From Actinomycetospora cinnamomea (GTDB lineage: Bacteria > Actinomycetota > Actinomycetes > Mycobacteriales > Pseudonocardiaceae): 64,000 nt of DNA. The notes under the pieces were generated by a model. It did no database searches. It saw only the letters and a list, made by a program, of their open reading frames with translations, and was not told where the DNA came from. This document shows positions 2,617-61,188 of this stretch, piece by piece (position 1 is the stretch's first letter; each line of letters starts with the position of its first letter). The position numbers were made by a program, and so were the translations under genes. The stretch is from assembly GCF_003096675.1 (NCBI RefSeq), contig NZ_QEKW01000013.1:1-64000 (forward strand). Reading direction: 5' to 3'.

Positions 2617-2630
2617 GGGTCATCGGTCCC
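2617..2630. promoter_or_regulatory. DosR-like box (9/10)
   Basis: GGGTCATCGGTCCC fits GGGAC-N4-GTCCC except for T at position 4. It lies about 56 bp upstream of the nitroreductase ATG (2686) and about 103 bp upstream of the USP ATG (2514), between divergent genes. Confidence 0.6.
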
Positions 2631-2685
2631 TGGTGAGCCGCCCGCCCCGCGCACGAGGCTCGGTCGACCGAGAAGGGGGAGCGCC

Positions 2686-3684
2686 ATGCGCCAGGACACG
2701 GACGCGACGACGGGGAGCGGTTCGCCCCCGGACGCCGCGGAGATCGCCCAGCTGCTGGCGGCGGGGGCGGCGGCGCCGTCGAGCCACAACACCCAGCCGT
2801 GGCGTCTGCGCTGGCACGACGGGGCCGTCGAGGTGCACGGCGACCCCGACCGTGCCCTCGCCGCCGCCGACCCCGACGGCCGCGAACTGCGGATGGCCTG
2901 CGGCGCGGCGCTGGCCAACGTGCGCCTGACGGTCCGCGCCCAGGGCCGGCGCGCCCACGTCCAGCTCCTGCCCGAGCCCGAGGAGCCCTGGTTCTTCGGA
3001 CGGGTCCGACCCGGCGCCGCGCTACCCCCGACCGGCTGGGAGGTGGAGCTGGCCGCGGCCATCCCGCGCCGGCACACCGACCGCCACCCGTTCAGCGGCC
3101 GACCGATCTCGGCGGCGCTGCGCGAGCAGCTCGGCCGGGCCGCGTGGCGTGAGCGGTGCCGGCTCGTGCTCGTGGACGGGTCCGAGCAGCGCCGGCAGCT
3201 GCGCGAGCTCACCGCGGAGGCGCACCGCCGGCAGCGGGCCGACCCGGCCTTCGTCGCCGAGTGGGAGCGGTGGATCGGGCATTCCGACCGCGTCGACGAC
3301 GGGCTCCCCCACCCCCGGGCCCGGCACGAGCCCCGGCCGGACGACGCCTGGCGACTCCGGGACTTCGCCGGGACGATCGCGGCCGACGAGCGGTTCCCCG
3401 GCGAGGACCCGGTGGAGGACGAGCCCACCATCGCCGTGGTGGCCAGCTACGACGACACCCGGCTCGCGCACGTCCAGGCCGGTCAGGCCATGGAGCAGGT
3501 CCTGCTCACCGCCACGGCCCGCGGATTGGCGTCGTCGTTCGTCGCGTCGCCGCTGGAGGTCGCGACGACGCGGGTCCAGGTGCGGGCCCTGCTCGGCGGG
3601 GTGCTGTGGCCGCAGATGGTGCTCCGCCTGGGGCGGGGCCGCTCGGTGCACCCCACCCCGCGGCGCGCCGACACCGGCGACTGA
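2686..3684 (+). CDS. Acg-type NAD(P)H nitroreductase-family flavoprotein
   Basis: 332 residues; start ATG 2686 with a strong purine-rich site (aagggggagcgcc). The N-terminal APSSHNTQPWRLRW block (residues about 30-43) is the signature of the actinobacterial Acg/Rv3131 branch, and GQAMEQVLLTATARGLASSF near residue 270 is the second conserved helix. Family members bind FMN; Mycobacterium Acg is reported not to act as a nitroreductase and may store flavin, so the substrate is open. Its length equals that of the mycobacterial DosR-regulon members. Divergent from a USP gene across the 2617 box; convergent, 3 bp from the stop of the sensor kinase. Confidence 0.88.
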   Translation: MRQDTDATTGSGSPPDAAEIAQLLAAGAAAPSSHNTQPWRLRWHDGAVEVHGDPDRALAAADPDGRELRMACGAALANVRLTVRAQGRRAHVQLLPEPEEPWFFGRVRPGAALPPTGWEVELAAAIPRRHTDRHPFSGRPISAALREQLGRAAWRERCRLVLVDGSEQRRQLRELTAEAHRRQRADPAFVAEWERWIGHSDRVDDGLPHPRARHEPRPDDAWRLRDFAGTIAADERFPGEDPVEDEPTIAVVASYDDTRLAHVQAGQAMEQVLLTATARGLASSFVASPLEVATTRVQVRALLGGVLWPQMVLRLGRGRSVHPTPRRADTGD

Positions 3685-3687
3685 CCG

Positions 3688-8263
<4,576 letters not shown>

Positions 8264-8344: not shown

Positions 8345-9679
8345 GTGCCCGACCGTTCCGAGCCCGCGACCCCGTCCAAGGGGCTCGCCTTCTCCTCGGT
8401 CGCCCGGCTCGAGCTCGACGAGCTGCTCGACCAGCTCATCGCCCGCGCCACCGAGGTCAAGCTCACCCAGGGCCGGCTGCGCGGGCTGCTCGACGCCACC
8501 CACCACATCACCGCGGGCCTGGAGCTCGACGACCTCGTGCAGCGCATCGTCGAGAGCACGCGGGCGCTGGTGGGGGCGCGCTACGCGGCGCTGGGCGTCG
8601 TCCGCGACGGACGCCTCATCCGCTTCGTGCACGTCGGCATGGACCCGGAGACCGTGAGGCGTATCGGCGAGCTCCCGCAGGGCAAAGGTGTGCTGGGCAG
8701 CCTCATCGACGACCCGAAGCCGCTGCGCCTGGACGACCTCGCCACCCACCCCGCATCGGTGGGCTTCCCCGCCGAGCACCCGCCGATGCGCTCGTTCCTG
8801 GGCGTGCCCCTGCTCGCCGGCGGCACCGTCTACGGCAACCTCTACGTCACCGAGAGCGCGCACGAGGACGGCTTCACCGCCGACGACGAGCAGCTCCTGA
8901 CGGCGCTGGCCGGGGCCGCCGGGATCGCCGTGGAGAACGCGCTCCTGCTCGAGAACGCGCGCCGCCGTGAGCGCTGGCAGGCCGCGTCGGCCGAGCTGGC
9001 CCGGAGCCTGCTCTCGGGCGAGATGGCGCCCGAGGCGGAGCTGCAGCACCTGCTGGACACCGCGGTGGAGGTGGCCCGCGCCCACGGGGCGGCGATCACC
9101 GAAGTGCCCGACGCCGACCCGACGATCGCCCACGTCAGCGCCGCCGCCGGCGGCGTGGCCGAGTGGGCCGGGCGCTCGGCGGGCACCGACGGGTCGATCA
9201 CCCAGGCCGCCCTGGACGCGGACGGCCCGGTCCTCGTGGCCGACGCCGCCGCCGATCCCCGGACCACCACGGTCGTCATGCGGGCTCCGGAGGTGCGGTC
9301 CGTGCTCGCCGTGCCGCTGTCCACGTCGCCCGGGGGTCCCGGGACCCGGTCGGTGCTCACCCTGACCCGTCCGGCGGGCGAGGAGGTCTTCGGCGCCCTC
9401 GAGGCGGAGATGCTGCTCGGCTTCGCCGCCCATGCGACGACGGCCATCGAGCTGGCCCGCGGGCGACGCGACCGCGAGGCCGTGCGCGACCTCGAGGCGC
9501 GCGAGCGGCTCGTGCTCGCGCTCTCCGAGCAGGTGCTCGCGCGGATTCAGCGGGTCGGGCTGGCGCTCACCAGCAGCGCCTCCGGCGCGGACCCGGCGCT
9601 GCGCCACCAGCTCCTCGCCCAGGTCGCCGAGCTCGACGACGTCACCCGCGCGGTCCGCGACACCGTCTTCCCCCGCTGA
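8345..9679 (+). CDS. DevS-like two-GAF sensor lacking a functional kinase core
   Basis: 444 residues from GTG 8345, with GAGG five bases upstream. GAF-A (about 60-205) is very close to DevS/DosT and keeps the aligned haem-ligand histidine (H145 in GFPAEHPPMRSFLGVP). GAF-B (about 215-370) is more divergent. The last 70 residues align with the HisKA_3 helix, but the DLHDHV phosphoacceptor block reads ALSEQV, so the histidine is replaced by serine; the protein then stops and no HATPase follows. It cannot be a conventional kinase. It may be a decoy, a heterodimer partner of the 3688 kinase, or a gas-binding regulator of other proteins. Not a recent break: the frame is clean and the stop natural. 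Confidence 0.88.
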   Translation: MPDRSEPATPSKGLAFSSVARLELDELLDQLIARATEVKLTQGRLRGLLDATHHITAGLELDDLVQRIVESTRALVGARYAALGVVRDGRLIRFVHVGMDPETVRRIGELPQGKGVLGSLIDDPKPLRLDDLATHPASVGFPAEHPPMRSFLGVPLLAGGTVYGNLYVTESAHEDGFTADDEQLLTALAGAAGIAVENALLLENARRRERWQAASAELARSLLSGEMAPEAELQHLLDTAVEVARAHGAAITEVPDADPTIAHVSAAAGGVAEWAGRSAGTDGSITQAALDADGPVLVADAAADPRTTTVVMRAPEVRSVLAVPLSTSPGGPGTRSVLTLTRPAGEEVFGALEAEMLLGFAAHATTAIELARGRRDREAVRDLEARERLVLALSEQVLARIQRVGLALTSSASGADPALRHQLLAQVAELDDVTRAVRDTVFPR

Positions 9680-10143: not shown

Positions 10144-10782
10144 TCACTGCTTCTCGGCCCGGACCTCGTTCGCCAGCACAGCGGCCTGCACCCGGCGGTG
10201 CATCCCCAGCTTGGCCAGCACCGCCGAGACGTAGTTCTTCACCGTCTTCTCGGCCAGGAACATGCGTTGTCCGATCTCCCGGTTCGTCAGGCCTTCCCCG
10301 ATGTAGCCCAGGACCTCCCGCTCCTTGCCGGTCAGCTCGGCCAGCGGGTCCGGCGCCTCGCTGCGCGTGCGCACCCGATTCATCAAGGCGCCGGCCGCGC
10401 GCCCGTCGAGCAGGGAGCGCCCCGCCCCGACCTCACGGACCGCGTTCACGATGTCGTTGCCGCGTACGTCCTTGATGACGTAGCCGCTGGCGCCGGCGAG
10501 CACCGCGTCGAACATCGCCTGCTCGTCGGTGAACGAGGTCAGCATCAGGCACGCCAACTCCGGCATGCGGGAGCGCAAGTCGCGACACAGCTCGATCCCC
10601 GTGCCATCGGGTAGCCGCACATCGAGGACCGCCACGTCGGGACTCAGCGCAGGGATGCGGGCGAGCGCCTCGGCCACGGAGCCGGCCTCGCCGATCACCT
10701 CGAGGTCGTCGTCACCGTCGAGGAGATCGGCGACACCCCGCCGCACCACCTCGTGGTCGTCCACCAGGAAGACAGTGGTCAC
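10144..10782 (-). CDS. devR: DevR/DosR-type response regulator (NarL/FixJ family)
   Basis: 212 residues from GTG 10782, with GGAG upstream. The receiver domain has D8, D9, phosphoacceptor D54, T82 and K104, the same numbering as mycobacterial DosR. The LuxR-type helix-turn-helix (about 146-205) reads [31 protein letters not shown]; the EKTVKNY recognition helix is the one that contacts the DosR box in M. tuberculosis. It is therefore the best candidate to bind the GGGAC-N4-GTCCC sites found through the window. It is split from its presumed kinase by about 4.7 kb, unlike the mycobacterial devRS operon. No strong DosR-like box lies upstream of it. Confidence 0.95.
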
Positions 10783-11096
10783 GGTGTGCTCCTCTCGTTC
10801 GTGGGTGGGGCGAGGGGGACCCAGCGGCGCAGCCGAGACCTGACCTCGTCCTCGGGACTTTCCGATGGAGCCCGCGAGCTAACGAATCACGCGGTGATCG
10901 GCGGGGGTGGTGGGGCAGTCGTCCCGAGTGCGCTTGCCCGTGCTGTACACCACGCGGTGGTACCCGCGGGAGCCGTCCAGCCCTGGTCGGTCGTGCCTCC
11001 GGGCCCTGCCGAGGTACGTCGAGGGGATGATCCACTCAGGTCGGCCGACCCCGACGCCGCTCGTCCTGGCGACCACATCTTCTCGAAGGAGCTGCG
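10783..11096. other. Gene-free divergent regulatory region
   Basis: 314 bp between devR (minus) and the membrane protein at 11097 (plus). No convincing coding frame. It holds a paired 13-bp palindrome (see 10886-10961), a DosR half-site GGGACTTT near 10854, and a poor 7/10 DosR-like match GTGCCTCCGGGCCC at 10993-11006. Confidence 0.5.
10886..10961. promoter_or_regulatory. Pair of 13-bp palindromes upstream of devR
   Basis: ATCACGCGGTGAT (10886-10898) and ACCACGCGGTGGT (10949-10961) are both perfect 5-3-5 palindromes and share 11 of 13 bases. They start 63 bp apart, six helical turns, within the devR/membrane-protein divergent region. They do not resemble the DosR box. The likely meaning is an operator pair for an unidentified dimeric repressor that could loop the DNA. 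Confidence 0.45.
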
Positions 11097-17841: not shown

Positions 17842-18136
17842 GAGAGCCTTCCTCCCGACCGGGCGCTCGTCATCGCACGGAGCCGATGCCCTCAGCTCCA
17901 GGGTGTGCCGCGGCGAGGGTTCGCCGGAGAGGCGAAGGACCCGCAGGCCGGGACCGACCGGGCGGCCCCGACCAGCGCCGGCGACGAGGAGGCCTCCGCC
18001 GTCACCGGACCAGCGACCCACCCGGCGCGCGGCGGCGGGCCGATCGTCCCGCCCCCCAGGGGCACTTCGTGCCTGGCGGGCGCCGCCCCGGCGCGCGGAT
18101 CGTCGGGAGCAGATGACGAGGAGCGAGGAGACCGGC

Positions 18137-25289: not shown

Positions 25290-25438
25290 GTGGCCCCTCC
25301 GCTGAGTGGCCCCCCGCACACGGATCGTAAGCACCTGCGGGTCCAGCGGGGAAGTGGCCCGGGCCCTCCGCCCCTGCCCCGACCGCCGGGCCCGCGCACA
25401 CGCTCAGCCGATCACCCCACCACCGCGAGGAGGCGACG

Positions 25439-26879: not shown

Positions 26880-26923
26880 GGGACCCGCGCTCCTCGTCCC
26901 CCGGGAGGCGGGACCTTCTGCCC
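26880..26923. promoter_or_regulatory. Two weak DosR-like boxes before the acyltransferase-3 gene
   Basis: GGGACCCGCGCTCC (26880-26893) and GGGACCTTCTGCCC (26910-26923), each 8/10. The second shares GGGACCTT and the following CCCTG with the 9/10 cydA box at 28872. They start 30 bp apart, not 21, so the case rests on sequence only. Confidence 0.3.
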
Positions 26924-28871: not shown

Positions 28872-28885
28872 GGGACCTTGGGCCC
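28872..28885. promoter_or_regulatory. DosR-like box (9/10) before cydA
   Basis: GGGACCTTGGGCCC, differing from GGGAC-N4-GTCCC only by G for T. It lies 85 bp upstream of the cydA ATG and 113 bp upstream of the Rv1733c-like gene, and is followed by TGATCACG. A poorer 7/10 site is at 28845-28858. Confidence 0.6.
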
Positions 28886-28969: not shown

Positions 28970-30370
28970 ATGGCGCTGGACCTGGCGCGCTGGCAGTTCG
29001 GCGTGACGACCGTCTACCACTTCCTGTTCGTCCCGTTGACCATCGGCCTGTCGCTGCTGGTCGCGGGCATGCAGACCGCGTGGGTCCGCACCGGTGACGA
29101 GCGCTGGCTGCGCATGACGAAGTTCTGGGGCAAGCTCTTCCTGATCAACTTCGCCATGGGCGTGGTCACGGGGATCGTCCAGGAGTTCCAGTTCGGGATG
29201 AACTGGAGCGACTACAGCCGCTTCGTCGGCGACGTCTTCGGCGCTCCCCTGGCGATCGAGGGCCTGCTCGCCTTCTTCCTCGAGTCGACGTTCCTCGGCC
29301 TCTGGATCTTCGGATGGGGCCGGCTGCCCAAGCGGGTGCACCTGGCGACGATCTGGGCCGCCGCGATCGGCACCCTGCTCTCGGCCTACTTCATCCTCGC
29401 CGCCAACTCGTGGATGCAGCATCCCGTGGGCTCCCGGGTCAACCCCGTCACCGGCCGCGCCGAGCTCACCGACTTCGGGGCGGTGCTGACCAACTCCACC
29501 GCGGTCGGCGCGTTCACGCACACCATCACGGCGGCCTTCCTCACCGCCGGCATGTTCATCCTGGGCATCTCCGCGTGGCACCTGGCGCGGCGGAACGAGA
29601 CGCGGGTGTTCCGCTCGTCGCTGCGCCTGGCGCTGGTGACCGTGCTCGTGGCCGGTGTCGGCACGGTGGTCACCGGCGACGTCCAGGCCCGGCTGATGAC
29701 CGAGCAGCAGCCGATGAAGATGGCGGCCGCCGAGGCGCTGTGGGACACGAGCACGCCGGCCTCGTTCTCGCTGTTCACCATCGGCAGCCTGGACGGCTCC
29801 CAGGAGGTCTGGAGCGTCCGGGTGCCGAAGGTGCTCTCCTTCATGGCCACCGGCGACCCCGACGGCACGGTCGAGGGCATCAACGACGTCCAGCGGGCGT
29901 CCGAGGCGCAGTTCGGTCCGGGCGACTACCGGCCCAACGTGCCGATCGCCTACTGGACCTTCCGGGCCATGATCGGCTTCGGCGCCCTCGCCCTGCTCGT
30001 CGCCCTGGCCGGCCTGTGGCTGCAGCGCGGCGGGCGCGTGCCCAGCTCCCGGTGGTACACCTGGGCGGCCCTGGCCGGCATCGGGTTCCCGGTGGTGGCC
30101 AACTCCGTCGGCTGGATCTTCACCGAGATGGGCCGCCAGCCGTGGGTCGTCTACGGCACGTTGCGCACCGCCGACGGCGTCAGCCCCTCGGTCGGGCCGG
30201 TGTCGGTGGCGACCTCGCTCGTCGTGTTCACCCTGCTCTACGGCGTGCTCGCCGTCGTCGAGGTGACCCTGCTCGTCCGCTACGCCCGCAAGGGCCCCGA
30301 CCCGCTGCCGCCTCCGGACGAGGAGACGCCGAGCGAGTCCACCCCGCGCCCGCTCGCGGTCGCGTACTGA
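28970..30370 (+). CDS. cydA: Cytochrome bd ubiquinol/menaquinol oxidase subunit I
   Basis: 466 residues, about nine helices. His17 in VYHFLFVPL is the equivalent of the haem b595/d ligand near the N-terminus; the GRQPW block (TEMGRQPWVVYGTLRT) and QQPMKMAAAEALW are diagnostic; the quinol (Q) loop is the short form. With CydB it oxidises quinol and reduces O2 with high affinity, helping respiration at low oxygen. First gene of cydA-cydB-cydDC. Confidence 0.97.
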   Translation: MALDLARWQFGVTTVYHFLFVPLTIGLSLLVAGMQTAWVRTGDERWLRMTKFWGKLFLINFAMGVVTGIVQEFQFGMNWSDYSRFVGDVFGAPLAIEGLLAFFLESTFLGLWIFGWGRLPKRVHLATIWAAAIGTLLSAYFILAANSWMQHPVGSRVNPVTGRAELTDFGAVLTNSTAVGAFTHTITAAFLTAGMFILGISAWHLARRNETRVFRSSLRLALVTVLVAGVGTVVTGDVQARLMTEQQPMKMAAAEALWDTSTPASFSLFTIGSLDGSQEVWSVRVPKVLSFMATGDPDGTVEGINDVQRASEAQFGPGDYRPNVPIAYWTFRAMIGFGALALLVALAGLWLQRGGRVPSSRWYTWAALAGIGFPVVANSVGWIFTEMGRQPWVVYGTLRTADGVSPSVGPVSVATSLVVFTLLYGVLAVVEVTLLVRYARKGPDPLPPPDEETPSESTPRPLAVAY

Positions 30371-30395
30371 TCCGGCCACGGCCCAGGAGGACATC

Positions 30396-31523
30396 GTGTT
30401 CGGCCTCGCGCTGACCGACATCTGGTTCCTGCTCATCGCCCTGCTCTGGACGGGCTACTTCGTCCTGGAGGGCTTCGACTTCGGCGTCGGCGCGCTGCTC
30501 GGCGTGCTCGGCCGCGACGAGACCGACCGCCGCCGCGTCATCAACACCATCGGTCCCCTCTGGGACGGCAACGAGGTGTGGCTGCTCGTGGCCGGCGGCG
30601 CGACGTTCGCCGCCTTCCCGGAGTGGTACGCGAGCCTGTTCTCCGGGTTCTACCTCGCGCTGCTGATCATGCTGGTCGCGCTCATCGGCCGGGGCGTCGC
30701 CTTCGAGTACCGCGGCAAGGTGGACGACCCGACCTGGCGCCGCCGGTGGGACCTCGTGATCATCTCGGCGTCCGCCGTGCCCGCCCTGCTGTGGGGGGTG
30801 GCCTTCGGCAACATCGTCGCGGGCGTGCCGCTGGACGCCGACCACGAGTACACGGGCACGTTGTTCACCCTGCTCAACCCCTACGCCCTGCTCGGTGGCC
30901 TGACCACCCTGCTGGTGTTCCTGCTCCACGGGGCGGTGTTCGTCGCCCTCAAGACCGACGGCGACCTGCGGGTGCGGGCCCACCGGCTCGCCCTGCGGCT
31001 CGGGCTCGGTGCCGTGCCGGTGGCGGCGGCCTTCCTCGCCTGGACCCAGCTCGCGCACGGCACGGGCTGGACGATCGTCAGCGCCGGCCTCGCCGCGGTC
31101 GCCCTGGTCGGCGCCGTCCTGCTCGCCGGACGCGAGCGCGAGGGCTGGGCGTTCACCCTGACCGCCGTGACGATCGTCGCCACCACGGTGACGCTCTTCG
31201 GCTCGCTCTACCCGGCCGTGCTGCCCTCCTCGACCGACCCCGCGGGCACGCTGACCACGACGAACGCCGCCTCGACGCCCTACACGCTGCAGATCATGAC
31301 GTGGGTGGCGCTCGCGGTGACCCCGGTCGTCCTGGCCTACCAGGCGTGGAGCTACTGGGTCTTCCGCCGCCGCCTGACCCGTGACGACATCCCGCCGGCC
31401 GGTGGGCTGCCCCCGCGCCGGGAGCGGGTCACGGCGGTCGACGGGACGACGGTGCCCGACACGCCGGTGGAGGCCCTGTCGGTCGACGGCGACGGCACCA
31501 CGGCGCCCGGGCCCCGGGCGTGA
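30396..31523 (+). CDS. cydB: Cytochrome bd oxidase subunit II
   Basis: 375 residues from GTG 30396 with AGGAGG. Conserved LLWTGYFVLEGFDFGVGAL, GPLWDGNEVWLLVAGG and the later helix pattern. The last 45 residues are hydrophilic and longer than in many CydB proteins. It overlaps cydDC by 4 bp (GTGA). Confidence 0.97.
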   Translation: MFGLALTDIWFLLIALLWTGYFVLEGFDFGVGALLGVLGRDETDRRRVINTIGPLWDGNEVWLLVAGGATFAAFPEWYASLFSGFYLALLIMLVALIGRGVAFEYRGKVDDPTWRRRWDLVIISASAVPALLWGVAFGNIVAGVPLDADHEYTGTLFTLLNPYALLGGLTTLLVFLLHGAVFVALKTDGDLRVRAHRLALRLGLGAVPVAAAFLAWTQLAHGTGWTIVSAGLAAVALVGAVLLAGREREGWAFTLTAVTIVATTVTLFGSLYPAVLPSSTDPAGTLTTTNAASTPYTLQIMTWVALAVTPVVLAYQAWSYWVFRRRLTRDDIPPAGGLPPRRERVTAVDGTTVPDTPVEALSVDGDGTTAPGPRA

Positions 31524-34500
31524 AGCCGCTCGACCCGCGGCTGCTGCGCCACGTCCGCCCGGCGCGCACCTTCGTGGTGCTCACCGCCGGCGCGGGCGTG
31601 GCCACCGCCGCGCTCGTCGTGGCCCAGGCCGACCTGCTCTCGCAGGTGGTCGCCCGGGCCTTCCTCGACGGCGCACCGCTCGCCGTGCTGACCGGGCTCC
31701 TGGCCGCGCTGGTGGCCGTCGTCGCCGGCCGGGCCGCTCTGGCCTGGGCCACGGAGGCGGCCGCGGTGCGCGCGAGCGCCCGGGTGATCGGGCAGCTGCG
31801 GGCCGACCTCGTCGACCACGTCCTGCGCCTGGGCCCGCGCGACCCCCGCCTGCCCTCGACCGGCGAGCTCGGCGTGCTGGCCACCCGCGGGATCGACGCT
31901 CTCGACGGCTACCTGCGCCGCTACCTGCCGACCCTGCTGCTGGCCACGACGGTGCCGCTGCTGGTCGGGGTGCGCCTGCTCACCGCCGACTGGCTCGCCG
32001 CGGTGATCGTCGCCGTCACCGTGCCGCTGATCCCGCTGTTCATGGTCCTCGTCGGCCTGCGCACCCGCGACGACACCACCCGGCGCTGGCGAGCCCTGGC
32101 GGTCCTGGGCCACCACTTCCTCGACCTCGTGGCGGGGCTCGACGTCCTCGTCGCCTTCGGCCGCGCGGGCGCCCAGGCCGGCCGTCTGCGCGCCGTCGCC
32201 GACGAGTACCGGCGGACCACGATGCGCACCCTGCGGGTGGCGTTCCTCTCCGCGCTGGTGCTCGAGGTGCTCGCCACGCTCTCGGTCGCCCTCGTGGCGG
32301 TGTCGGTGGGCCTGCGGCTGGCCGAGGGCCGGCTCGACCTGGCCACCGGGCTGCTCGTGATCATGCTTGCGCCCGAGATCTACCTGCCGCTGCGCGCGGT
32401 CGGCGCCCGCTTCCACGACAGCATGGAGGGCCTGGCCGCGGCCGACGACGTGTTCGCGGTGCTGGAGACGTCGGCGGACGCGGGGCCGGCGGGCCCCGGG
32501 GGCGCCCGCCGGCCCGCGCCGGACCCGTCCCGCGTGCCGGTGCGCCTCGAGCGGGTCGGCGTCGACGGCCGCGGGGGCGCGGTGCTCGACGACCTCGACC
32601 TGACGGTGGCCCCCGGCGAGATCGTCGGGCTGCGCGGTCCGAGCGGGGCAGGCAAGTCCACGCTGCTCGATCTCGTCACCGGGCTGCGCCGTCCCGACCG
32701 CGGACGGGTGAGCGTCGGCGGCGTCGGGCTGGACGACCTCGACCCCGAGGCCTGGCGGGCGCGGATCGCCTGGGTGCCGCAGCGGCCGGTGCTGGTCGCG
32801 GGCACCGTGGCCGACAACATCCGGCTCGGCGCGCCGGACGCGTCCGACCGGGCGGTCGGCCGGGCCGCGCGGGCCGCGCGGGTCGACCTCGACCTCGACG
32901 TGCCGGTCGGCGAGCGCGGCGCCGGCCTGTCCACCGGACAGCAACGCCGCGTCGCGCTGGCCCGCGCGCTGGTCGCCGACCGCCCCCTGCTGCTGCTCGA
33001 CGAGCCCACTGAGGGCGTCGACGCCGAGACCGAGTCGGCACTGCTGGCGGTGCTGCCCTTCGCGCTCGCCGGACGCAGCGCGATCGTCGTGAGCCACCGC
33101 CCCGGCGTCCTCGCGGCCTGCGACAGGGTCGTGGACCTGCCCGGCCGGCACGCGGTCCCCGCTCCCCCTCCGGCGTCCCCGCCGACCTCGAGCTCGGCTG
33201 CTCCCGCGGCCCCCGTCCCGCCGGGCTCCCCCGGCGGCGAGGTGGAGCCGGCCGTCCCCGGCCGCGCCGGGGGCGCGCTGCGGTGGTTCGCGGCGGCGGC
33301 CCGTCCGCGGGCCGTCGGCCTCACGATCGCGGTCCTGCTCGGGGCCGGCGCGCTGGGCAGCGCGGTGGCGCTCACGGCCACCTCGGCCTGGCTGATCTCC
33401 GCGGCGGCGCTGCAGCCCCCGCTGCTGACCCTCGTCGTGGCGATCGTCGCGGTGCGCGCGTTCGGCCTGGCCAAGGGCGTCCTGCGCTACCTCGAGCGGC
33501 TCGCGTCCCACGACGCCGCGCTGCGCCTCGGCGCCGACCTGCGCGTGCGGGTCTGGCGGGCGCTGGTCCGGCGTGGCCCGGCGGCAACGGCCGCGCAGCG
33601 CCGCGGGGACCTGCTCTCCCGGCTCACCGGCGACGTCGACGCCCAGCAGGACGTCCTCGTGCGCGGTCTGGTGCCGGCGGGGTCCGCGCTGCTCGTGGCG
33701 ACGGGGCTGGTCGGCCTCTTCGCGGTGCTGCTGCCCGAGGCCGCGATCGTCCTCGCCCTCGGCCTGCTGCTCGCGGGCGTCGTCGCCCCGCTGCTCGGCG
33801 TGCTCGCGGGCCGGCGGGCCGCGCGAACGACCGCCGCGGCCCGCGCCGCGGTGGCCACGGGCACCCTCGAGCTGCTCGAGGGGGCCGCCGACCTGCTCGT
33901 GCTCGGCGCCGCCGGGCGACGCCGGCGGCGGCTGGCCGCGCACGACACCGAGCTGGCCGACCGCACGGTCGCCCAGGCCGGCGGCGCGGGCCTCGGCGCG
34001 GGTCTCGGGGTGCTCGGGATCGGCCTGGCGATGGTCGGCGCGACCGTCGTCGGCGTGCTGGCGCTCGCGGACGGGCGACTGGCGCCGACCGCCCTGGCCG
34101 TGCTCGCCCTGACCCCGCTGGCCGCCGCCGAGCTCGTCGCGGGGCTGCCGGACGCCGCCGCGCGCCTCGCCGAGGCGGTCCCGGCCACCCGCCGGCTGGC
34201 CGAGCTCGAGGCGGCGCCGGCGCCGGTGACCGACCCGGTGCCGGCCGCCGCCGTTCCCGCCGACCCCACCGTGGCCGTCGAGTCGCTGGCCGTGCGCTGG
34301 CCGGACGCGACGCAGGAGGCGGTCAGCGGGGTGTCCTTCGCGCTCCCGCCCGGCGAGCGCATGGTGCTCGCCGGTCCCTCGGGGGCAGGCAAGAGCACGG
34401 TGCTCGCCGCGATCCTGCGCACCCTGCCCGCCGCGCGTGGTGCGGTGACCCTCGACGGTCGCGACACCGCGACGATGGCCGCCGAGGACGTGCGCTCCCG

Positions 34501-34954
34501 CATCGCCTCGTGCGGCCCGGCGGCGCACCTGTTCGACAGCACGCTGCGCGAGAACCTGCGCCTCGCCCGCCCGGAGGCGACCGACGACGAGATCGTCGAG
34601 GCCCTCGACCACGCGCGGCTCGGCGGCTGGCTCGCCTCTCTGCCCGAGGGCCTGGACACGCCGCTGGGCGAGCACGGCGGCCCCGTCTCCGGCGGCGAAC
34701 GTCAGCGGCTCGCGGTGGCCCGTGTGCTGCTCGCCGACCGCCCGGTGCTCACCCTCGACGAGCCCACCGCCCACCTGGACGCGCCCACCGCCACCGCGCT
34801 GGCCACGGAGATCGAGGCGCTGAGCCGCGGCCGCACGGCGCTCGTCGTGTCCCACCGGCCCGGCGAGTTCCCCGGGCTGCCGGTGGTGGAGCTGGGGCGC
34901 ACGGACGTCCCGGGCGTGGCCGGAGCCCGGGCCGCGGTCGCATCGCCCCACTGA
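31520..34954 (+). CDS. cydDC: CydDC fused ABC transporter (thiol/haem exporter for cytochrome bd assembly)
   Basis: 1144 residues in one chain: membrane domain and ATPase of CydD (1-560; Walker A GPSGAGKST with K379, signature LSTGQQRRVALARAL, LLLDEPTEG), a Pro/Ser/Ala-rich linker (about 545-580), then CydC (about 590-1144; Walker A K958, signature VSGGERQRLAVARVL, TLDEPTAHLD). In E. coli the two halves are separate and form a heterodimer that exports cysteine and glutathione and binds haem; fused forms occur in Streptomyces and relatives. Coupled to cydB. Confidence 0.95.
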   Translation: MKPLDPRLLRHVRPARTFVVLTAGAGVATAALVVAQADLLSQVVARAFLDGAPLAVLTGLLAALVAVVAGRAALAWATEAAAVRASARVIGQLRADLVDHVLRLGPRDPRLPSTGELGVLATRGIDALDGYLRRYLPTLLLATTVPLLVGVRLLTADWLAAVIVAVTVPLIPLFMVLVGLRTRDDTTRRWRALAVLGHHFLDLVAGLDVLVAFGRAGAQAGRLRAVADEYRRTTMRTLRVAFLSALVLEVLATLSVALVAVSVGLRLAEGRLDLATGLLVIMLAPEIYLPLRAVGARFHDSMEGLAAADDVFAVLETSADAGPAGPGGARRPAPDPSRVPVRLERVGVDGRGGAVLDDLDLTVAPGEIVGLRGPSGAGKSTLLDLVTGLRRPDRGRVSVGGVGLDDLDPEAWRARIAWVPQRPVLVAGTVADNIRLGAPDASDRAVGRAARAARVDLDLDVPVGERGAGLSTGQQRRVALARALVADRPLLLLDEPTEGVDAETESALLAVLPFALAGRSAIVVSHRPGVLAACDRVVDLPGRHAVPAPPPASPPTSSSAAPAAPVPPGSPGGEVEPAVPGRAGGALRWFAAAARPRAVGLTIAVLLGAGALGSAVALTATSAWLISAAALQPPLLTLVVAIVAVRAFGLAKGVLRYLERLASHDAALRLGADLRVRVWRALVRRGPAATAAQRRGDLLSRLTGDVDAQQDVLVRGLVPAGSALLVATGLVGLFAVLLPEAAIVLALGLLLAGVVAPLLGVLAGRRAARTTAAARAAVATGTLELLEGAADLLVLGAAGRRRRRLAAHDTELADRTVAQAGGAGLGAGLGVLGIGLAMVGATVVGVLALADGRLAPTALAVLALTPLAAAELVAGLPDAAARLAEAVPATRRLAELEAAPAPVTDPVPAAAVPADPTVAVESLAVRWPDATQEAVSGVSFALPPGERMVLAGPSGAGKSTVLAAILRTLPAARGAVTLDGRDTATMAAEDVRSRIASCGPAAHLFDSTLRENLRLARPEATDDEIVEALDHARLGGWLASLPEGLDTPLGEHGGPVSGGERQRLAVARVLLADRPVLTLDEPTAHLDAPTATALATEIEALSRGRTALVVSHRPGEFPGLPVVELGRTDVPGVAGARAAVASPH

Positions 34955-35428: not shown

Positions 35429-35702
35429 GCTCCCGGCAGGCCCTCGCGACGAAGGCGTCGCGAACGCCTCGAAGCCGGGCGGCCACCCCCTCGCCCTCGG
35501 GGTGCGGCGCCGCCCAGGCCAGGGGTCGATGGTCCCGCTCCCGACCGGGCCCGGAGCGCGGGAGCAGGCCCGGTAACGACGCGCTGGTGCTGTTCGGCCC
35601 TACCGCGCGGGCCGGGGGGTTGGCGAGGCTGACCGGGGAGCGCGGACCGCGCCGTCGTCGAGACGTCCCGTCCGCCGACCGCCTCCGGGGAGGAGTGTCA
35701 CC

Positions 35703-36218: not shown

Positions 36219-36319
36219 CCGGCCTCCGGCTCACGGCACCGGCGCGCCGACCGCCGGGCCCACGGGTCCGGGCCCAACGGACCTGGTCCGCGGTGCTCGC
36301 GGACGCGCACCGTGACGGC

Positions 36320-44168: not shown

Positions 44169-44170
44169 CG

Positions 44171-45021: not shown

Positions 45022-45056
45022 GGGACGTCCGGCGCGAGGCGGGTGACCTCCGGCCC
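45022..45056. promoter_or_regulatory. Pair of DosR-like boxes 21 bp apart in a divergent promoter
   Basis: GGGACGTCCGGCGC (45022-45035) and GTGACCTCCGGCCC (45043-45056), each 8/10, start 21 bp apart. They lie between the USP-WS/DGAT-xfp-ackA operon (minus) and the 45108 gene and P-type ATPase operon (plus); either arm could be served. The CTCCG core recurs at 974, 50376 and 57771. Confidence 0.5.
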
Positions 45057-45411: not shown

Positions 45412-48239
<2,828 letters not shown>

Positions 48240-48243
<4 letters not shown>

Positions 48244-50375: not shown

Positions 50376-50389
50376 GGGACCTCCGACCC
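50376..50389. promoter_or_regulatory. DosR-like box (9/10)
   Basis: GGGACCTCCGACCC, differing from the palindrome only by A for T. It is 58 bp upstream of the small gene at 50448 and 130 bp upstream of the USP at 50245. Confidence 0.6.
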
Positions 50390-50447: not shown

Positions 50448-50642
50448 ATGTCCTGCTGGTGCGGCCACGGCCCGTGGCACCACTACGGCTACGCCTACCC
50501 GATGCCGGTCTACCCGGCCGCGCCGTACCCGCCGCCGGACCGGGACCGGTCGGAGGGCGATCTGGAGCGTCGTCTCGCCCACCTCGAGGAGGAGCTCGGG
50601 CGCCTGCGGGAGGAACTGGCGGCGCAGCGCCGCAGCTCATGA
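50448..50642 (+). CDS. Small His/Cys-rich protein with a coiled-coil tail
   Basis: 64 residues from ATG 50448, with GGAGG seven bases upstream. The N-terminus MSCWCGHGPWHHYGYAY packs two Cys and three His, a likely metal-binding patch; a Tyr/Pro-rich middle follows; the C-terminal half (DLERRLAHLEEELGRLREELAAQRR) is a charged heptad coiled coil. No signal peptide. Resembles small, uncharacterised proteins seen in several Gram-positive genera. A good DosR-like box upstream suggests hypoxic expression. Confidence 0.75.
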   Translation: MSCWCGHGPWHHYGYAYPMPVYPAAPYPPPDRDRSEGDLERRLAHLEEELGRLREELAAQRRSS

Positions 50643-54397: not shown

Positions 54398-55337
54398 CTC
54401 CGTATCCCTCCGTCTCGTCCGGGTGGCCCGGTGTCGCGTCGCCGGGGACGACGACCACCGGGCACGGCGCGCGCAGCACGGCGCCGTGGGCGACCGAGCC
54501 GAGCAGCCACCGCGCGAACGCCCCGTGACCCGTACGCCCGACCACGACGACCGGGGCCGCGATCTGCTCGGCGACGTCCACCACCGCCAGGGTCGGGTCC
54601 TCCGCCCGCACCACCACCTCGATCGACGGGACGGGGTGGCGGCGCCCGTACTCGCCCACGACCCCGCCGACGAACTGCTCGACCCGCGGTCGCAGGCTCT
54701 CGCGGACGGCCGTCAGCGTCGTCGCCGGGAGGGGGCGGAACCCGACCGTCGAGGGTGGTGGCGCAGCTCCGGTGACCGCGACGACGTCGACCCGGCGGCG
54801 CAGCGCATCGGCCAGCGCGTAGCGCAGGGCGGCCGCGGAGTTCTCCGACCGGTCGATCCCGACGACGACGGGGCCGTCGGGCCCGGCCGCCCGGGGACGC
54901 ACCACCAGCACCGGGCACGGCGCCAGGGCGAGCAGGCGCACGCCGGTGGAGCCGAGCACCGCGCGCCCGACCATCCCGCGCCCGCGGTGGCCGACGACCA
55001 GGAGCTCCGCCCCGCGCGCGGCGTCGGCGAGCACCGGCGCGGGCGACCCCGCCCGGACCCGGACCTCGAGCGGGACGCCGCGCAGGGCCTCCGAGAGGTG
55101 CAGGGTCGCCTCGGCGACATACCGCTGCGCCTGCTCGAGCACCGCGGCCGCCATCCGGTCCGGCTCGAGGACGTCGGCGTCCCCGTCCCCCTCCGCCCAC
55201 GACCCCGGGGCGGCGTAGGCCAGCATCGCCGTGACCCCCACGCCGCGGCGGGCGGCCTCCTCGACGGCCGCCACCAGTGCGCCGGCCGCCGTCGTCGATC
55301 CGTCGACGCCGACGACGACGCCCGACGCCGCGGTCAT
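54390..55337 (-). CDS. Tandem universal stress protein (two Usp domains)
   Basis: 315 residues from ATG 55337. Domain 1: GVVVGVDGSTTAAGAL and VVGHRGRGMVGRAVLGS; domain 2: PVVVGIDRSENSAAAL and VVGRTGHGAFARWLLGS. Both halves keep a near-full ATP loop, so this is the most canonical tandem USP in the window. Overlaps the CBS gene by 4 bp. Confidence 0.92.
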   Translation of the reverse strand: MTAASGVVVGVDGSTTAAGALVAAVEEAARRGVGVTAMLAYAAPGSWAEGDGDADVLEPDRMAAAVLEQAQRYVAEATLHLSEALRGVPLEVRVRAGSPAPVLADAARGAELLVVGHRGRGMVGRAVLGSTGVRLLALAPCPVLVVRPRAAGPDGPVVVGIDRSENSAAALRYALADALRRRVDVVAVTGAAPPPSTVGFRPLPATTLTAVRESLRPRVEQFVGGVVGEYGRRHPVPSIEVVVRAEDPTLAVVDVAEQIAAPVVVVGRTGHGAFARWLLGSVAHGAVLRAPCPVVVVPGDATPGHPDETEGYGDD

Positions 55338-55780
55338 GCCCGCGGCCCTCCCGAGAGGAGCGCCGCGAGCAGGCCGGTGGTGGTCACGACCCGCAGCAGC
55401 GCGCCGTGGCGTGCCCGCACCGGCAGGGCGGGCAGTCCCGTACCGAGCAGCCGGTGACCCGCGTGGCGCAGGGAGTCGTCGGCGGCGAGCACGTCGACCC
55501 CACAGGGTCGGTCCAGGACGTCGTGCACGGTCCAGCGGTGCTGGACGAGGGGCCCACCGGCCGGCCAGCGCTCGGCGAGCGCCCCGGCCGTCACGACCGC
55601 GAGGGGCCTCCCGTCGCGCACGACCACCCCGACGTGGTCCTGGTCCTGGTGCAGCCGCGCCCAGGCCTCCGGCAGCGGGGCCGACTCGGCGAGCGTGGTC
55701 GCCGGCCGGGCGACGGTGTCCACCGGCGCGTCGAGGTCGATCGCGGGCACGGCGTCCTCCAGCGTCGTCGTGTCCGACAC
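55334..55780 (-). CDS. CBS-domain protein
   Basis: 148 residues from GTG 55780, GGAG upstream. Two weak CBS repeats: DTVARPATTLAESAPLPEAWARLHQDQDHVGVVVRDGRPLAVVTAG in the first half and TVHDVLDRPCGVDVLAADDSLRHAGHRLLGTGLPALPV in the second. Possible adenylate sensor encoded between two USP genes. Confidence 0.75.
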   Translation of the reverse strand: MSDTTTLEDAVPAIDLDAPVDTVARPATTLAESAPLPEAWARLHQDQDHVGVVVRDGRPLAVVTAGALAERWPAGGPLVQHRWTVHDVLDRPCGVDVLAADDSLRHAGHRLLGTGLPALPVRARHGALLRVVTTTGLLAALLSGGPRA

Positions 55781-55789
55781 CTCGGCTCC

Positions 55790-56272
55790 TCAGGCCGCGA
55801 CGGGCTCGGGGACCACGGTGACCGGGCACGTCGCGTGCAGGACGCAGCCCAGGCCCACCGAGCCGAGCACGACGCTGCCGAACGCGCCGCGTCCGCGGTG
55901 TCCCACGACGAGCTCGTCGGCCTCCCGCGAGATGTCGACCAGCACCTCGGCCGGCCGGCCGGGCAGGGCCTCGACCGAGACCTCCGGCGGCGTCCCGTCC
56001 CAGGCCGTCTCGGCGAGGACCTCGTCCACCATCTGCCGAGCCGCGGTGTACTCCTCCTCGCGCAGCGCGTCCGGGTCGGGCAGCGGAATGCCCGCGGAGG
56101 CCCCGTAGCTCCACGCCGCCCACACCTCGGGCGGGTCGTAGACGGCCACCGCTCGCACGCGGTCGCCCCGGCGCATCGCGGTCCGGATCGCCTCCTGCAG
56201 GGCGCGTCGCGAGCCGCTCGACCCGTCGATCCCGCAGACGATGACACCCTGCCGGGCGCCGTTCTCGGTCAT
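55790..56272 (-). CDS. Universal stress protein (UspA family)
   Basis: 160 residues from ATG 56272 with a purine-rich site. VIVCGIDGSSGSRRALQEAI and VVGHRGRGAFGSVVLGSVGLGCVLHATCPVTVVPEP are canonical; it is a close paralogue of 12276-12761. First gene of the operon 56272-53409, with a 9/10 DosR-like box 107 bp upstream. Confidence 0.92.
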   Translation of the reverse strand: MTENGARQGVIVCGIDGSSGSRRALQEAIRTAMRRGDRVRAVAVYDPPEVWAAWSYGASAGIPLPDPDALREEEYTAARQMVDEVLAETAWDGTPPEVSVEALPGRPAEVLVDISREADELVVGHRGRGAFGSVVLGSVGLGCVLHATCPVTVVPEPVAA

Positions 56273-56378: not shown

Positions 56379-56392
56379 GGGGCGAAGGTCCC
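56379..56392. promoter_or_regulatory. DosR-like box (9/10)
   Basis: GGGGCGAAGGTCCC, with G for A at position 4, followed by GATC. It precedes the five-gene USP/CBS operon beginning at 56272. A poorer 7/10 site is 22 bp away at 56357-56370. Confidence 0.6.
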
Positions 56393-57252: not shown

Positions 57253-57687
57253 TCACCCGAGGTCGTCGAGCAGGAACCTGACCACGTCGCGCATCGAGAC
57301 GATCCCGGTCACGGGGCCGTTGTCGGGGTCGTCGCGCTCGCCGGGGCCCCGCACGAGGACGTGGCGGACGCGCGCGTCGACCATCAGGCGCCCGACGTCC
57401 GCGACCGACGTGTCCTCGCCGGCGGTCACCAGGTCGACGGTCATGAGGTCGGTCGCCTGGGTCTCGAGGTCGCCGCCGGAGGCGAGCACCGTGACGAGGT
57501 CCCGCTCGGAGATCAGCCCGATCGGCTCGTGGCCGTGCTGGACGACGACGACACCGATCTCGTCGAGCGCGAGCTCCTCGGCGACGTCCTGCAGGGTCGC
57601 GTCGGGCTCGACGGTGGCGAGGTTCCGGTCGACCACCTCCCGGACCGCGGTGGTCGCGGCGGCGGACGGCGTGCTGGTCGGGCTCAT
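57253..57687 (-). CDS. CBS-pair protein, Hrp1-like
   Basis: 144 residues from ATG 57687 after AGGAGGAG. Two full CBS motifs: DRNLATVEPDATLQDVAEELALDEIGVVVVQHGHEPIGLISERDLV and the second around TDLMTVDLVTAGEDTSVADVGRLMVDARVRHVLV...GIVSMRDVVRFLL. Size and arrangement match mycobacterial Hrp1 (Rv2626c), a DosR-regulon hypoxic-response protein whose ligand is uncertain. It diverges from 57872 across two 9/10 boxes. Confidence 0.87.
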   Translation of the reverse strand: MSPTSTPSAAATTAVREVVDRNLATVEPDATLQDVAEELALDEIGVVVVQHGHEPIGLISERDLVTVLASGGDLETQATDLMTVDLVTAGEDTSVADVGRLMVDARVRHVLVRGPGERDDPDNGPVTGIVSMRDVVRFLLDDLG

Positions 57688-57748: not shown

Positions 57749-57784
57749 GGGACGACGGTCCGCCGCGCCCGGGACCTCCGTCGC
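57749..57784. promoter_or_regulatory. Two 9/10 DosR-like boxes 22 bp apart
   Basis: GGGACGACGGTCCG (57749-57762) and GGGACCTCCGTCGC (57771-57784), with a further 7/10 copy (ACGACCCGCGACCC) at 57792-57805, 21 bp on. This is the best tandem in the window and lies between the Hrp1-like gene (minus) and the MgtC/DUF4010 gene (plus). Confidence 0.65.
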
Positions 57785-57871: not shown

Positions 57872-59143
57872 GTGGACACCGTCACCGCACTCGCGCACGT
57901 CGGGACGGCCCTGGCGATCGGGCTCCTGGTCGGCCTGGAGCGGGAGCACAGCGCGCGCCACGACCTCCCCCGCCCGTCCGCGGGCGCCCGCACCTTCGCG
58001 CTGCTCGCCGTGACGGGCGCGGTGGCGACGGCGCTGGGCGTCGCGGTCCTGGTCGCCGGCCTGGCGGCCGTGACGGTGCTGATGGTCGTCGGCTACCTGG
58101 CCGCCGTGCGCACGGCCGCGGAACCGGACCTCGGGGCCACCACCGAGGTCGCCGCCGTGGGCACCTACCTGCTTGGCGCCCTCGCCTGGACCCGGCCTTC
58201 GTGGGCCGTCGCGATCGGTGTGGGCGTCGTCGTCGTGCTCGCGGTCAAGCGTCCGCTGCACGACTTCGCCACCCGCCTCGTCACCGACCAGGACGTCGGG
58301 GACGCGCTGCGGCTGTTCGTGGTCGCCCTGGTCGTGCTGCCGCTGCTGCCCGACCGGCCGCTGGGCCCCTACGGGGTCCTCAACCCCTCGCGGATCTGGC
58401 TGCTCGTGGTGGCCCTCACCGTCGTCGGCTGGGTCGGCTACGTCGGCGTGCGCGCGCTGGGCGAGCGGATCGGGCTGCTGCTCGTGGGGTTCCTCGGCGG
58501 GTTCGTCTCCGCGTCGGCGACGACGCTGGTCCTGGCCCGCCGGCGGCGGCGCGGGGAGGTGGCGCCGGCGGTGATGCCGGCGGTGCTCGCCGCCAACGTC
58601 GCCACCCTGGTGCAGCTGGTCGTGGTGGTGGCCGTCGCCTCGCCCGCGGTGGCGCTGCGGCTGCTCCCGGCGGCCGGGGCCGGGGTCGTGGTCCTGCTGG
58701 CCGAGATCGCCTGGCTGTGGCGCCGAACGGCCGGCGCGCCTGCTCCGGCCGAGGACCCGCAGACGCCGGCGGACGAGAACCACCCCGCGGTGCGCCCGCT
58801 CTCGCTCACGGCCACCCTCACCCTCGCCGCGCTGCTGGTGGTGCTCCTGCTCGGCACGCGGCTCGCCGCCGAGCTCGCCGGCAGCGGTGGGGTCGCCGTC
58901 GCCGCGGTGGTCGGGGGGCTGGCCGACGCCCACGCCGCGTCGGTGGCCGCCGCGACCCTGGCCGGCACGGTCATCCCGGTCGCGACGGCGGCGGCCGCCG
59001 CCGGCCTGGCGCTGGCCGCCAACACCGCGACGAAGCTCGCCCTGGCGCTCGCGGCGGGCGGCGCCCGCTTCGCCGGCCGGTTGACCCTCCTGCTCGCCGC
59101 CCCCGTCGCGGCGGTCGCGACCGGGATCGCCCTCGTCCCGTGA
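57872..59143 (+). CDS. MgtC/SapB-DUF4010 family membrane protein
   Basis: 423 residues from GTG 57872, with GGGGAGGGG upstream. The N-terminal MgtC-like part (GTALAIGLLVGLEREHSARHDLPRPSAGARTFALLAVTGAVATALG, in the first 60 residues) carries the GLxVGLERE and G-x-RT blocks; the remaining 280 residues form the DUF4010 helices. About 11 helices. MgtC proteins aid survival under magnesium limitation and modulate membrane energetics; role here unproven. Confidence 0.85.
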   Translation: MDTVTALAHVGTALAIGLLVGLEREHSARHDLPRPSAGARTFALLAVTGAVATALGVAVLVAGLAAVTVLMVVGYLAAVRTAAEPDLGATTEVAAVGTYLLGALAWTRPSWAVAIGVGVVVVLAVKRPLHDFATRLVTDQDVGDALRLFVVALVVLPLLPDRPLGPYGVLNPSRIWLLVVALTVVGWVGYVGVRALGERIGLLLVGFLGGFVSASATTLVLARRRRRGEVAPAVMPAVLAANVATLVQLVVVVAVASPAVALRLLPAAGAGVVVLLAEIAWLWRRTAGAPAPAEDPQTPADENHPAVRPLSLTATLTLAALLVVLLLGTRLAAELAGSGGVAVAAVVGGLADAHAASVAAATLAGTVIPVATAAAAAGLALAANTATKLALALAAGGARFAGRLTLLLAAPVAAVATGIALVP

Positions 59144-59646: not shown

Positions 59647-60537
59647 TCACGACGCCGGGGCGTCGGGCTCGGGCAGCTCGTCCTCCGGCGGCGTGCCCTC
59701 GACGAGGGGCCGGAGCGGACGTTCGGTCAGGACGTTGGTGAGGATCTCGGTGAAGGCGTCGGGGTCGGTGATGAGCCAGCTGTGGGTGCCCTCGACGGTG
59801 CGCACGACGTCGTCCCCCAGCGCGAGCCGGAGGGCCGCGAGCGACGCCTCGGGCAGGACGCGGTCCTGCCGGCCCCACACGACGACCACCGGCAGCCGTC
59901 GGCGCCGGAGCTCCTCCAGCTCGTGCCGCAGGTCGGCGGTCCGCGCCAGCTCGGCGACCCTCCAGACCGCCAGCGGGTTGCGCAACGCGTTGGTGGCCGC
60001 GTCCGAGACGATCACGGGGACGACCCGGCCGAACGGCCCGCCGGGGTCGAGGTCGGCCTGCAGGTGCAGGCCCCAGTCCCACCACGGCCGCTCGGACATG
60101 AGCCGGGGGCCGGCGGGGCCGGTGGCCCACACCGCGCCGCCGATGCTGTTGACCAGCACGAGCCGGGACACGACGTCGGAGGCGTCGTGGGCGAGCCGCA
60201 CCGCGACCCCGCCCCCGAACGAGTGCCCGACGACGGTGACCGGGCCCTCGACGCCGACGCTCTCGAGGAACCGCACGACCCAGCGCGCATAGCCCGCCAG
60301 CGTGAACTCCGCGGCGGGCAGCTCGTCGGACCCGCCGAAGCCCGGCAGGGCCGGCGCCACCACGCGCGCCCCGCGGGCGGCGACCTGCGCGAGACCGGTG
60401 CGGTAGGACGCCGGGCTCAGCGCCCACCCGTGCAGGAACAGGACGACGGGTCCCTCCCCCGCGCTCCACCAGACGGCGCGACGCCCATCGACGCGCCCCT
60501 CGTGCCGGCGACCGACCGGGCCGCGCCGCTCGCTCAC
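59647..60537 (-). CDS. Alpha/beta hydrolase
   Basis: 296 residues from GTG 60537, overlapping the USP stop by 4 bp. VVLFLHGWALSPASY gives the oxyanion site; VVGHSFGGGVAVRL the nucleophile Ser; VVWGRQDRVLPE the Asp; VEGTHSWLITDP the His. Resembles esterase/haloalkane dehalogenase-like soluble hydrolases. Substrate unknown. Confidence 0.88.
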   Translation of the reverse strand: MSERRGPVGRRHEGRVDGRRAVWWSAGEGPVVLFLHGWALSPASYRTGLAQVAARGARVVAPALPGFGGSDELPAAEFTLAGYARWVVRFLESVGVEGPVTVVGHSFGGGVAVRLAHDASDVVSRLVLVNSIGGAVWATGPAGPRLMSERPWWDWGLHLQADLDPGGPFGRVVPVIVSDAATNALRNPLAVWRVAELARTADLRHELEELRRRRLPVVVVWGRQDRVLPEASLAALRLALGDDVVRTVEGTHSWLITDPDAFTEILTNVLTERPLRPLVEGTPPEDELPEPDAPAS

Positions 60538-61115
60538 GACAGCCTGCGCCGACCGGCGGGCGGCACGACGGTGACCGGACAGGTCGCGTGGCGCAGGCAC
60601 CACCAGCCGACGGATCCGAGGGTCGCGGTCGCCGCGAGACCCCGGCCACGGTGGCCGAGGACGAGGCGCGCGGCCCCGGTCGACGCGGCCGTGAGCACCG
60701 GTCCCGGGTCGCCCGCCACCGCCCGCACGACCACGGGGGGCTCGGACACGCCGGGGTGCTCGACGCGGTCCGCGGCGAGCACCTCGTCCACGACGGCCCG
60801 GGCCGCGGCCTCGGCGGCGGCCGCGACCTCGGCCCGCTCGACGGCGATCGGGATCCCGACGATGGCGGCGAGCTGCTCCGGGGAGACGAAGGCGGTCACG
60901 ACCTCGAGCGTCGCGTCGCGGCGCCGGGCCTCCGCGAGCGCATGCCGCAGGGCCGCACGGGCCCCGACCGAGTCGTCGAGCCCGACCACCACACGTTGGT
61001 CTCGCCGGCCGCCGTCGACGTCCGGCGCCGCGGTCGTCGCGGCCTCCGCGAGCTCCGTCGCGGTCCCCGTCGCGTCCTCCTTCACGTCCCCCGCCACGTC
61101 CCCGGTCGTCGTCAT
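60534..61115 (-). CDS. Universal stress protein (UspA family)
   Basis: 193 residues from ATG 61115 with GGGGAGG. A 38-residue low-complexity Ala/Thr/Asp extension precedes RVVVGLDDSVGARAAL; ATP loop LVLGHRGRGLAATATLGS, end CPVTVVPPAGRR. First gene of the USP-hydrolase-RDD operon; a 9/10 box lies 60 bp upstream. Confidence 0.88.
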   Translation of the reverse strand: MTTTGDVAGDVKEDATGTATELAEAATTAAPDVDGGRRDQRVVVGLDDSVGARAALRHALAEARRRDATLEVVTAFVSPEQLAAIVGIPIAVERAEVAAAAEAAARAVVDEVLAADRVEHPGVSEPPVVVRAVAGDPGPVLTAASTGAARLVLGHRGRGLAATATLGSVGWWCLRHATCPVTVVPPAGRRRLS

Positions 61116-61174
61116 CACGCGCCTCCCCTCGCCGACGTGCGGCTCAGGCTCGGGCGACGTCACGACGGCCGGCA

Positions 61175-61188
61175 GGGCCCAGGGTCCC
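61175..61188. promoter_or_regulatory. DosR-like box (9/10)
   Basis: GGGCCCAGGGTCCC, C for A at position 4, followed by GATC. It is 60 bp upstream of the USP at 61115 (minus), just past the stop of the alcohol dehydrogenase at 61218. Confidence 0.6.

Follow-up and report, generated by a model that had tools for sequence, protein, structure and literature searches.

The stretch analyzed here (hereafter the window) consists of positions 1–64,000 of contig NZ_QEKW01000013.1 (C13) of Actinomycetospora cinnamomea. It encodes a response regulator of the DevR/DosR type (10144..10782, reverse strand), a heme-GAF histidine kinase of the DevS/DosT type (3688..5409, reverse strand), and a kinase-less DevS paralog (8345..9679, forward strand) with two GAF matches, in which the phospho-acceptor His and the ATPase domain are missing. 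The palindrome GGGAC-N4-GTCCC, proposed here to be the DevR box, recurs between the genes of the window. It was scanned with at most one mismatch against genes called by a home-made codon-usage caller trained on the window, whose starts and small open reading frames are approximate. Fifteen matches were found, 11 of them wholly intergenic, and intergenic DNA makes up 12% of the window.

A perfect predicted box, GGGACCAATGTCCC (5474..5487), lies between the divergent devS and GNAT/acyl-CoA ligase genes, 71 and 119 bp from their respective starts. Predicted boxes with one mismatch are located at 2617..2630, between the divergent genes of a USP (1981–2514) and an Acg-family oxidoreductase (2686–3684); at 28872..28885 (GGGACCTTGGGCCC), between an Rv1733c-family gene and cydA, with the top matrix score among the window targets listed; at 50376..50389, between a USP gene (49805–50329) and a small open reading frame (50448–50642); at 56379..56392, in front of a unit of five genes, most of them for USPs (53409–56272), at a distance of 113 bp and with a counterpart at −109 in genomes G001 and G015; at 57749..57762, between a CBS-pair (Hrp1-like) gene (57253–57687) and an MgtC/DUF4010 gene (57872–59143); and at 61175..61188, 63 bp upstream of a USP gene (60534–61118). 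A second match with one mismatch (57771..57784) shares the divergent gap of the 57749 box. These eight sites had been listed in a first-pass annotation; all were located as given and are wholly intergenic in the independent gene calls. That list was incomplete, since three intergenic matches (10912, 18037, and 35523) and four genic ones (31443, 42979, 56468, and 59498) had been overlooked. The match at 18037..18050 (GGGCCGATCGTCCC) is a predicted box between a reverse-strand gene (17053–17841) and a pyridoxamine-oxidase/nitroreductase/GH65 unit (18113–22102), and that at 35523..35536 is a predicted box upstream of a USP gene (35703–36218). The match at 10912..10925, with one mismatch upstream of devR, falls below the matrix cut-off and is therefore probably not a strong site. 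A family search of the site neighbors supports the families named earlier, namely USPs, Acg-family oxidoreductase, the cyd genes, Rv1733c family, and CBS pair, with cydDC represented by one fused ABC protein. USP, Acg, Rv1733c, and CBS-pair genes are classic DosR targets. The genes cydA and cydB and the fused cydDC-type ABC gene (28970..34954, forward strand) form a predicted DevR target unit.

The number of matches in the whole window is at chance level: shuffled versions of the window contain 13.6 on average, and 38 of 100 shuffles reach 15. The signal is the location of the matches. First-order Markov versions of the intergenic DNA contain a mean of 1.9 matches, and none of 500 reaches the 11 observed. 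The first-pass annotation had estimated fewer than one match by chance at a G+C content of 72%; the estimate is too low and the measured G+C content is 76%, but the intergenic excess is real. Equal density inside genes or in shuffled sequence had been named there as evidence against a regulon. The density is 1.43 per kb in intergenic DNA versus 0.071 in genes, and the excess over randomized sequence is absent for the window total but clear between the genes. GGGAC tops a set of 80 permuted half-sites (11 intergenic matches versus a mean of 1.5), and in a spacer series of 0–10 the enrichment stands out for spacer 4 alone. The refined motif reads (A/C)GGG(A/C)C(C/G)WW followed by its mirror image.

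The enrichment is also found in the rest of the 161-kb contig (64001–161207), which was outside the view of the first-pass annotation. Matches in this part number 11 between genes and 3 within them (1.37 and 0.034 per kb); the Markov mean for its intergenic DNA is 2.6, and none of 500 versions reaches 11. Twenty control stretches of 20 kb, placed at round coordinates on eleven other contigs and not drawn at random, contain 5 intergenic and 25 genic matches (0.12 and 0.070 per kb). Contig C12, likewise rich in USP genes, falls in between (9 and 15 matches; 0.58 and 0.104 per kb), and seven other stretches chosen for USP, DevR, or perfect-motif matches hold 5 and 11 (0.29 and 0.096 per kb). When genes with gaps under 60 bp are grouped into transcription units, a held-out matrix built from the rest of C13 (cut-off 10) places sites upstream of 23 of the 37 units in the window versus 6 of 231 control units, and one built from the window (cut-off 10) does so for 20 of 58 units in the rest of C13 versus 9 of 231. 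With an in-sample matrix at a cut-off of 11, 48 of the 94 units on the whole contig carry a site versus 3 of 231 control units; the table derived from it is backed by the agreement of the held-out tests. The site lies 40–120 bp upstream of the start codon in 39 of the 52 unit–site pairs listed on the contig. Further boxes predicted by the matrix in the window are at 953..966, between a reverse-strand gene (144–917) and a CBS-USP gene (1038–1916); 25361..25374, between a reverse-strand gene (24393–25289) and a WS/DGAT gene (25492–26871); 26910..26923, upstream of an acyltransferase gene (26996–28150); 36270..36283, upstream of a WS/DGAT gene (36293–37768); and 45043..45056, between a USP-WS/DGAT-phosphoketolase-acetate kinase unit (39137–44923) and 45108–48243 (P-type ATPase).

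DevR of the window aligns over residues 1–209 with DosR of Mycobacterium tuberculosis (3c3w, E 5e-90). Its residues K179, K182, and N183, which are named as base-contacting in DosR in extracts of PMC4082495, are identical, in keeping with the mycobacterial recognition helix attributed to it in the first-pass annotation. The closest named relatives found are from Actinomycetospora (75, 87, and 88% identity), and the genome encodes two paralogs, at C13:97481 (89%) and C5:34208 (72%). DevS has a GAF domain closest to GAF-A of DosT/DevS, followed by HisKA_3 and HATPase domains. The His in its heme box (HPPMRTF) aligns with His149, as numbered from the construct 63–210, and heme binding is predicted. 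Among nine devR orthologs, three have a strong site (G003, G006, and G007), five have no strong one, and one could not be scored. In four of the five without a strong site (G002, G005, G008, and G009), devR starts 27–54 bp after devS, suggesting that a site before devS could serve both genes. Of the five devS orthologs scored, three have strong sites (−68, −70, and −84) and two have weaker ones (9.8 at −44 and 7.4 at −85).

Eighteen genomes of the genus were compared, with E ≤ 1e-75 for DevR and E ≤ 1e-50 for DevS. DevR is present in 12, all near-complete. DevR and DevS co-occur; three near-complete genomes (G004, G013, and G017) have neither, and the next best DevR relative in these is 39–45% identical. 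The incomplete genomes G010, in which a DevS match is found, G011, and G014 were left out of the comparisons. USP domains number 8–62 in the 12 DevR-positive genomes versus 5, 7, and 7 in the three DevR-less ones, a difference with p 0.002 in an exact rank test that makes no correction for relatedness. The A. cinnamomea genome has 60 USP-domain matches, 30 on C13 and 14 on C12. It would be too strong to say that the USP expansion and the gene block are always present or absent as one: USP domains number only 8 and 9 in two DevR-positive genomes, and 3 of the 12 lack the type of cydA found in the window. Near devR in ten congeners (20 stretches), 80 intergenic matches (1.53 per kb) versus 44 genic ones (0.127 per kb) were found, and GGGAC again ranks first among 80 half-sites. 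In the DevR-less trio, 17 stretches around USP genes, which take in 18 of the 19 USP matches, contain 1 intergenic site in 24.9 kb and 20 genic matches.

A conserved footprint is seen at the cydA promoter. Island-type cydA, 69–100% identical to that of the window, was found in nine genomes, and all nine have a matrix site (scores 10.3–19.3) at −84 to −102; six of these sites also fit GGGAC-N4-GTCCC itself when one mismatch is allowed. No site was found before any of the 18 other cydA copies scored (47–54% identical, DevR-less genomes included), none of which exceeds 8.3; partial match rows in G005 (one) and G010 (two) were excluded. No block is better conserved than this site when seven island-type promoters are aligned. 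The sequence GGGACCACCGG just before this box is exact in three of the seven (G003, G006, and A. cinnamomea itself, G000) and altered in the rest, and is perhaps a second DevR half-site. A second, diverged cydA of A. cinnamomea (52% identical, C1:604611–606062) lies outside the block and has no DevR box.

Enrichment between genes around devR extends to other genera: 0.58 intergenic versus 0.030 genic matches per kb in Nocardia (12 loci), 0.60 versus 0.037 in Mycobacteriaceae (31 loci), and 0.43 versus 0.029 in Amycolatopsis (8 loci), and the motif is likewise enriched in Actinomadura (2 loci). The system resembles DosR/DevR-DosS/DosT of M. tuberculosis in the residues K179/K182/N183, in the heme-GAF kinase with an equivalent of His149, and in its Acg, USP, Rv1733c, and CBS-pair genes. 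It differs in having many predicted targets on one contig, unlike the target list familiar from M. tuberculosis, and in the center of the box, which is (C/G)WW(C/G) where the M. tuberculosis box of 20 bases serves as the comparison. As a predicted operator, the refined motif is intermediate between that box and the OsdR consensus of Streptomyces coelicolor, AGGGCCGATCGGCCCT. According to extracts of PMC5069765, this consensus is supported by gel-shift tests, eight sites cover 20 of the 22 genes of SCO0198–SCO0219 near osdR, and a USP-rich cluster, SCO0167–SCO0219, surrounds the regulator. As far as these extracts go, the two systems share a DevR-type regulator with its kinase, a palindromic box, and a USP-rich cluster around the regulator, so clustering is not new in kind. 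Features noted on the Actinomycetospora side are genes for cytochrome bd, Acg, Rv1733c, WS/DGAT, and phosphoketolase-acetate kinase in the block, two DevR genes on one contig, the kinase-less DevS paralog, and the absence of DevR and DevS from some species of the genus. Literature on a DosR-type regulon in this genus or its relatives was searched for, and the parts seen contained nothing on point. The predicted regulon is of a known kind in a new genus and strongly clustered, and as a finding it is real. With it, dormancy regulons of the DosR/OsdR type would reach a soil genus new for them. Some species there have the system and others lack it, offering a natural comparison and a mild model for oxygen-controlled dormancy.

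The palindromes are very probably operator sites of the DosR/DevR-type (OsdR-like) regulator encoded at 10144 and of its paralogs. The binding, the activation, and the signal are assigned here from the protein families. DevS would sense low oxygen (or CO/NO) through its heme-GAF domain and phosphorylate DevR, dimers of which would bind (A/C)GGG(A/C)C(C/G)WW(C/G)G(T/G)CCC(T/G), usually 40–120 bp before the starts and often between divergent genes. This binding would turn on genes for USPs, cytochrome bd, the Acg and Rv1733c homologs, CBS proteins, and lipid storage (WS/DGAT). The DosR-type regulon proposed in the first-pass annotation is thus supported and appears right in substance; the clustering that it described is strong, but sites are enriched on C12 as well, and the regulon therefore reaches beyond a single place.

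Several observations weigh against DevR operators. The window total shows no excess (15 versus 13.6 expected), and the genome-wide count of GGGMC-N4-GKCCC is 182 versus 321 for a reversed control. Strict-consensus genome totals overlap as well, being 5–18 in DevR-positive and 8, 10, and 12 in DevR-negative genomes. Such whole-genome counts do not discriminate, as matches inside genes drown out the signal. Isolated sites lie in convergent gaps (1 of 9 on C12 and 3 of 80 intergenic sites in the congeners). Conservation of promoters is uneven (scores above 10 in 3 of 5 devS orthologs and in 3 of 7 matches of the USP gene at 1981), and the USP rows in this scoring often fall on the same gene. The scarcity of sites in the DevR-less genomes is partly confounded, because the gene block is absent there too. 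Around devR, little or no enrichment is found in Rhodococcus (5 loci; 0.15 intergenic versus 0.056 genic), Haloechinothrix (2 loci), or Segniliparus, Williamsia, and Xylanimonas (1 locus each). The three DevR copies, two of them on C13, mean that the binder could be any of these, and the window devR is preceded by no good site, only by the weak match at 10912. The last point would also fit a different regulator that recognizes this palindrome, or binding mainly by the paralog at C13:97481 or C5:34208 in place of the window DevR; the paralog gene at C13:97466–98113 has a strong site 95 bp upstream (C13:98202). We consider this unlikely. The recognition-helix stretch is common to the window DevR and DosR and the C13 paralog is 89% identical, suggesting that the DevR paralogs share their specificity. 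Furthermore, a single DevR at E ≤ 1e-75 is present in 7 of the 11 DevR-positive congeners; all of these except G012 were scanned, and the motif is present in each of the six.

That the palindromes are GC-rich hairpins, acting as terminators or mRNA stem-loops, is plausible, given GC-rich stems of 5 bp, loops of 4 bases, and a G+C content of 76%. However, of the 22 sites on C13 as a whole, 15 are in divergent, 7 in tandem, and none in convergent gaps, a layout of operators and not of terminators; stems of equal composition are not enriched to this degree, and the block upstream of cydA is conserved at a nearly constant distance. Hairpins are thus very unlikely. Amplification of the USP genes (60 domain matches) might suggest a mobile or duplicated repeat, or sites that were carried along with duplicated USP genes, but the sites precede unrelated gene families, and the flanks of 27 sites are unrelated, only 1 of 351 pairs matching at E 0.01, from two sites 63 bp apart; this origin is extremely unlikely. 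The orientation, the permuted half-sites, and the flank comparison together disfavor both readings. The probability of chance in GC-rich DNA, with which the whole-window count agrees, is negligible: the Markov comparisons of intergenic DNA in the window and in the rest of the contig (0 of 500 each) and the congeners contradict it, and the held-out tests refute it.

The kinase-less paralog should also be noted. The protein of 8345–9679 has 444 residues, is 38% identical to DevS over 429 columns, and ends before the ATPase domain, with LSEQ in place of LHDH in the phospho-acceptor box. Homologs of this build are found in all 12 near-complete DevR-positive genomes and in the incomplete G011 (the window gene and loci L137, L139, L141, L143, L145, L147, and L195–L200). 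The phospho-acceptor His is lost in all 13, whereas the HPPM heme box is kept in eight, reduced to its His in one, and lost in four. The gene and its ortholog in G007 differ by a dN of 0.08 and a dS of 0.42, pointing to selection for function. In the scan of devR loci, 66 of the 76 proteins with a DevS-like GAF also have an ATPase domain. The ten without comprise eight rows of this paralog, all in Actinomycetospora (two from the same genome), one protein cut by the end of its stretch, and one from Amycolatopsis, which has 546 residues and a C-terminus resembling a diverged ATPase end. Within the scanned loci of other genera (up to 10 kb on either side of devR), no kinase-less DevS was found, and the partial literature seen in a search for one gave nothing on point. 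The window gene has no DevR site of its own (best matrix score, 0.7). It sits 81 bp behind the gene at 5600–8263, whose promoter contains the perfect 5474 site; since this gap exceeds the 60-bp limit, it is not counted as a target. In G002 and G008, the paralog is divergent from devS, and a DevR box precedes it. Our guess is that the paralog restrains DevS. A broader proposal, put forward tentatively and with more doubt than confidence, is that regulator, sensor, and dozens of target units on the 161-kb contig form a dormancy island that varies in size or is absent by species, in which the always-kept degenerate DevS, usually with a heme box, might pair with DevS or compete for its ligand and so act as a gas-sensing brake on DevR. 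This conserved, kinase-dead copy of an oxygen sensor, an unusual broken form, is a candidate for a new control step and is open to testing.

Two neighboring units deserve mention. The phosphoketolase and acetate kinase genes (39137–42759) belong to one predicted DevR-controlled unit with WS/DGAT and USP genes, and acetyl phosphate produced by it could, speculatively, phosphorylate DevR. The protein encoded at 5600–8263 combines a GNAT with an ADP-forming acyl-CoA ligase, and the perfect 5474 box is common to its gene and devS. In M. tuberculosis, the GNAT Rv0998 acetylates DosR at K182, according to extracts of PMC5861037. By analogy, the idea may be raised, from the shared promoter, that the GNAT/CoA-ligase protein acetylates DevR.

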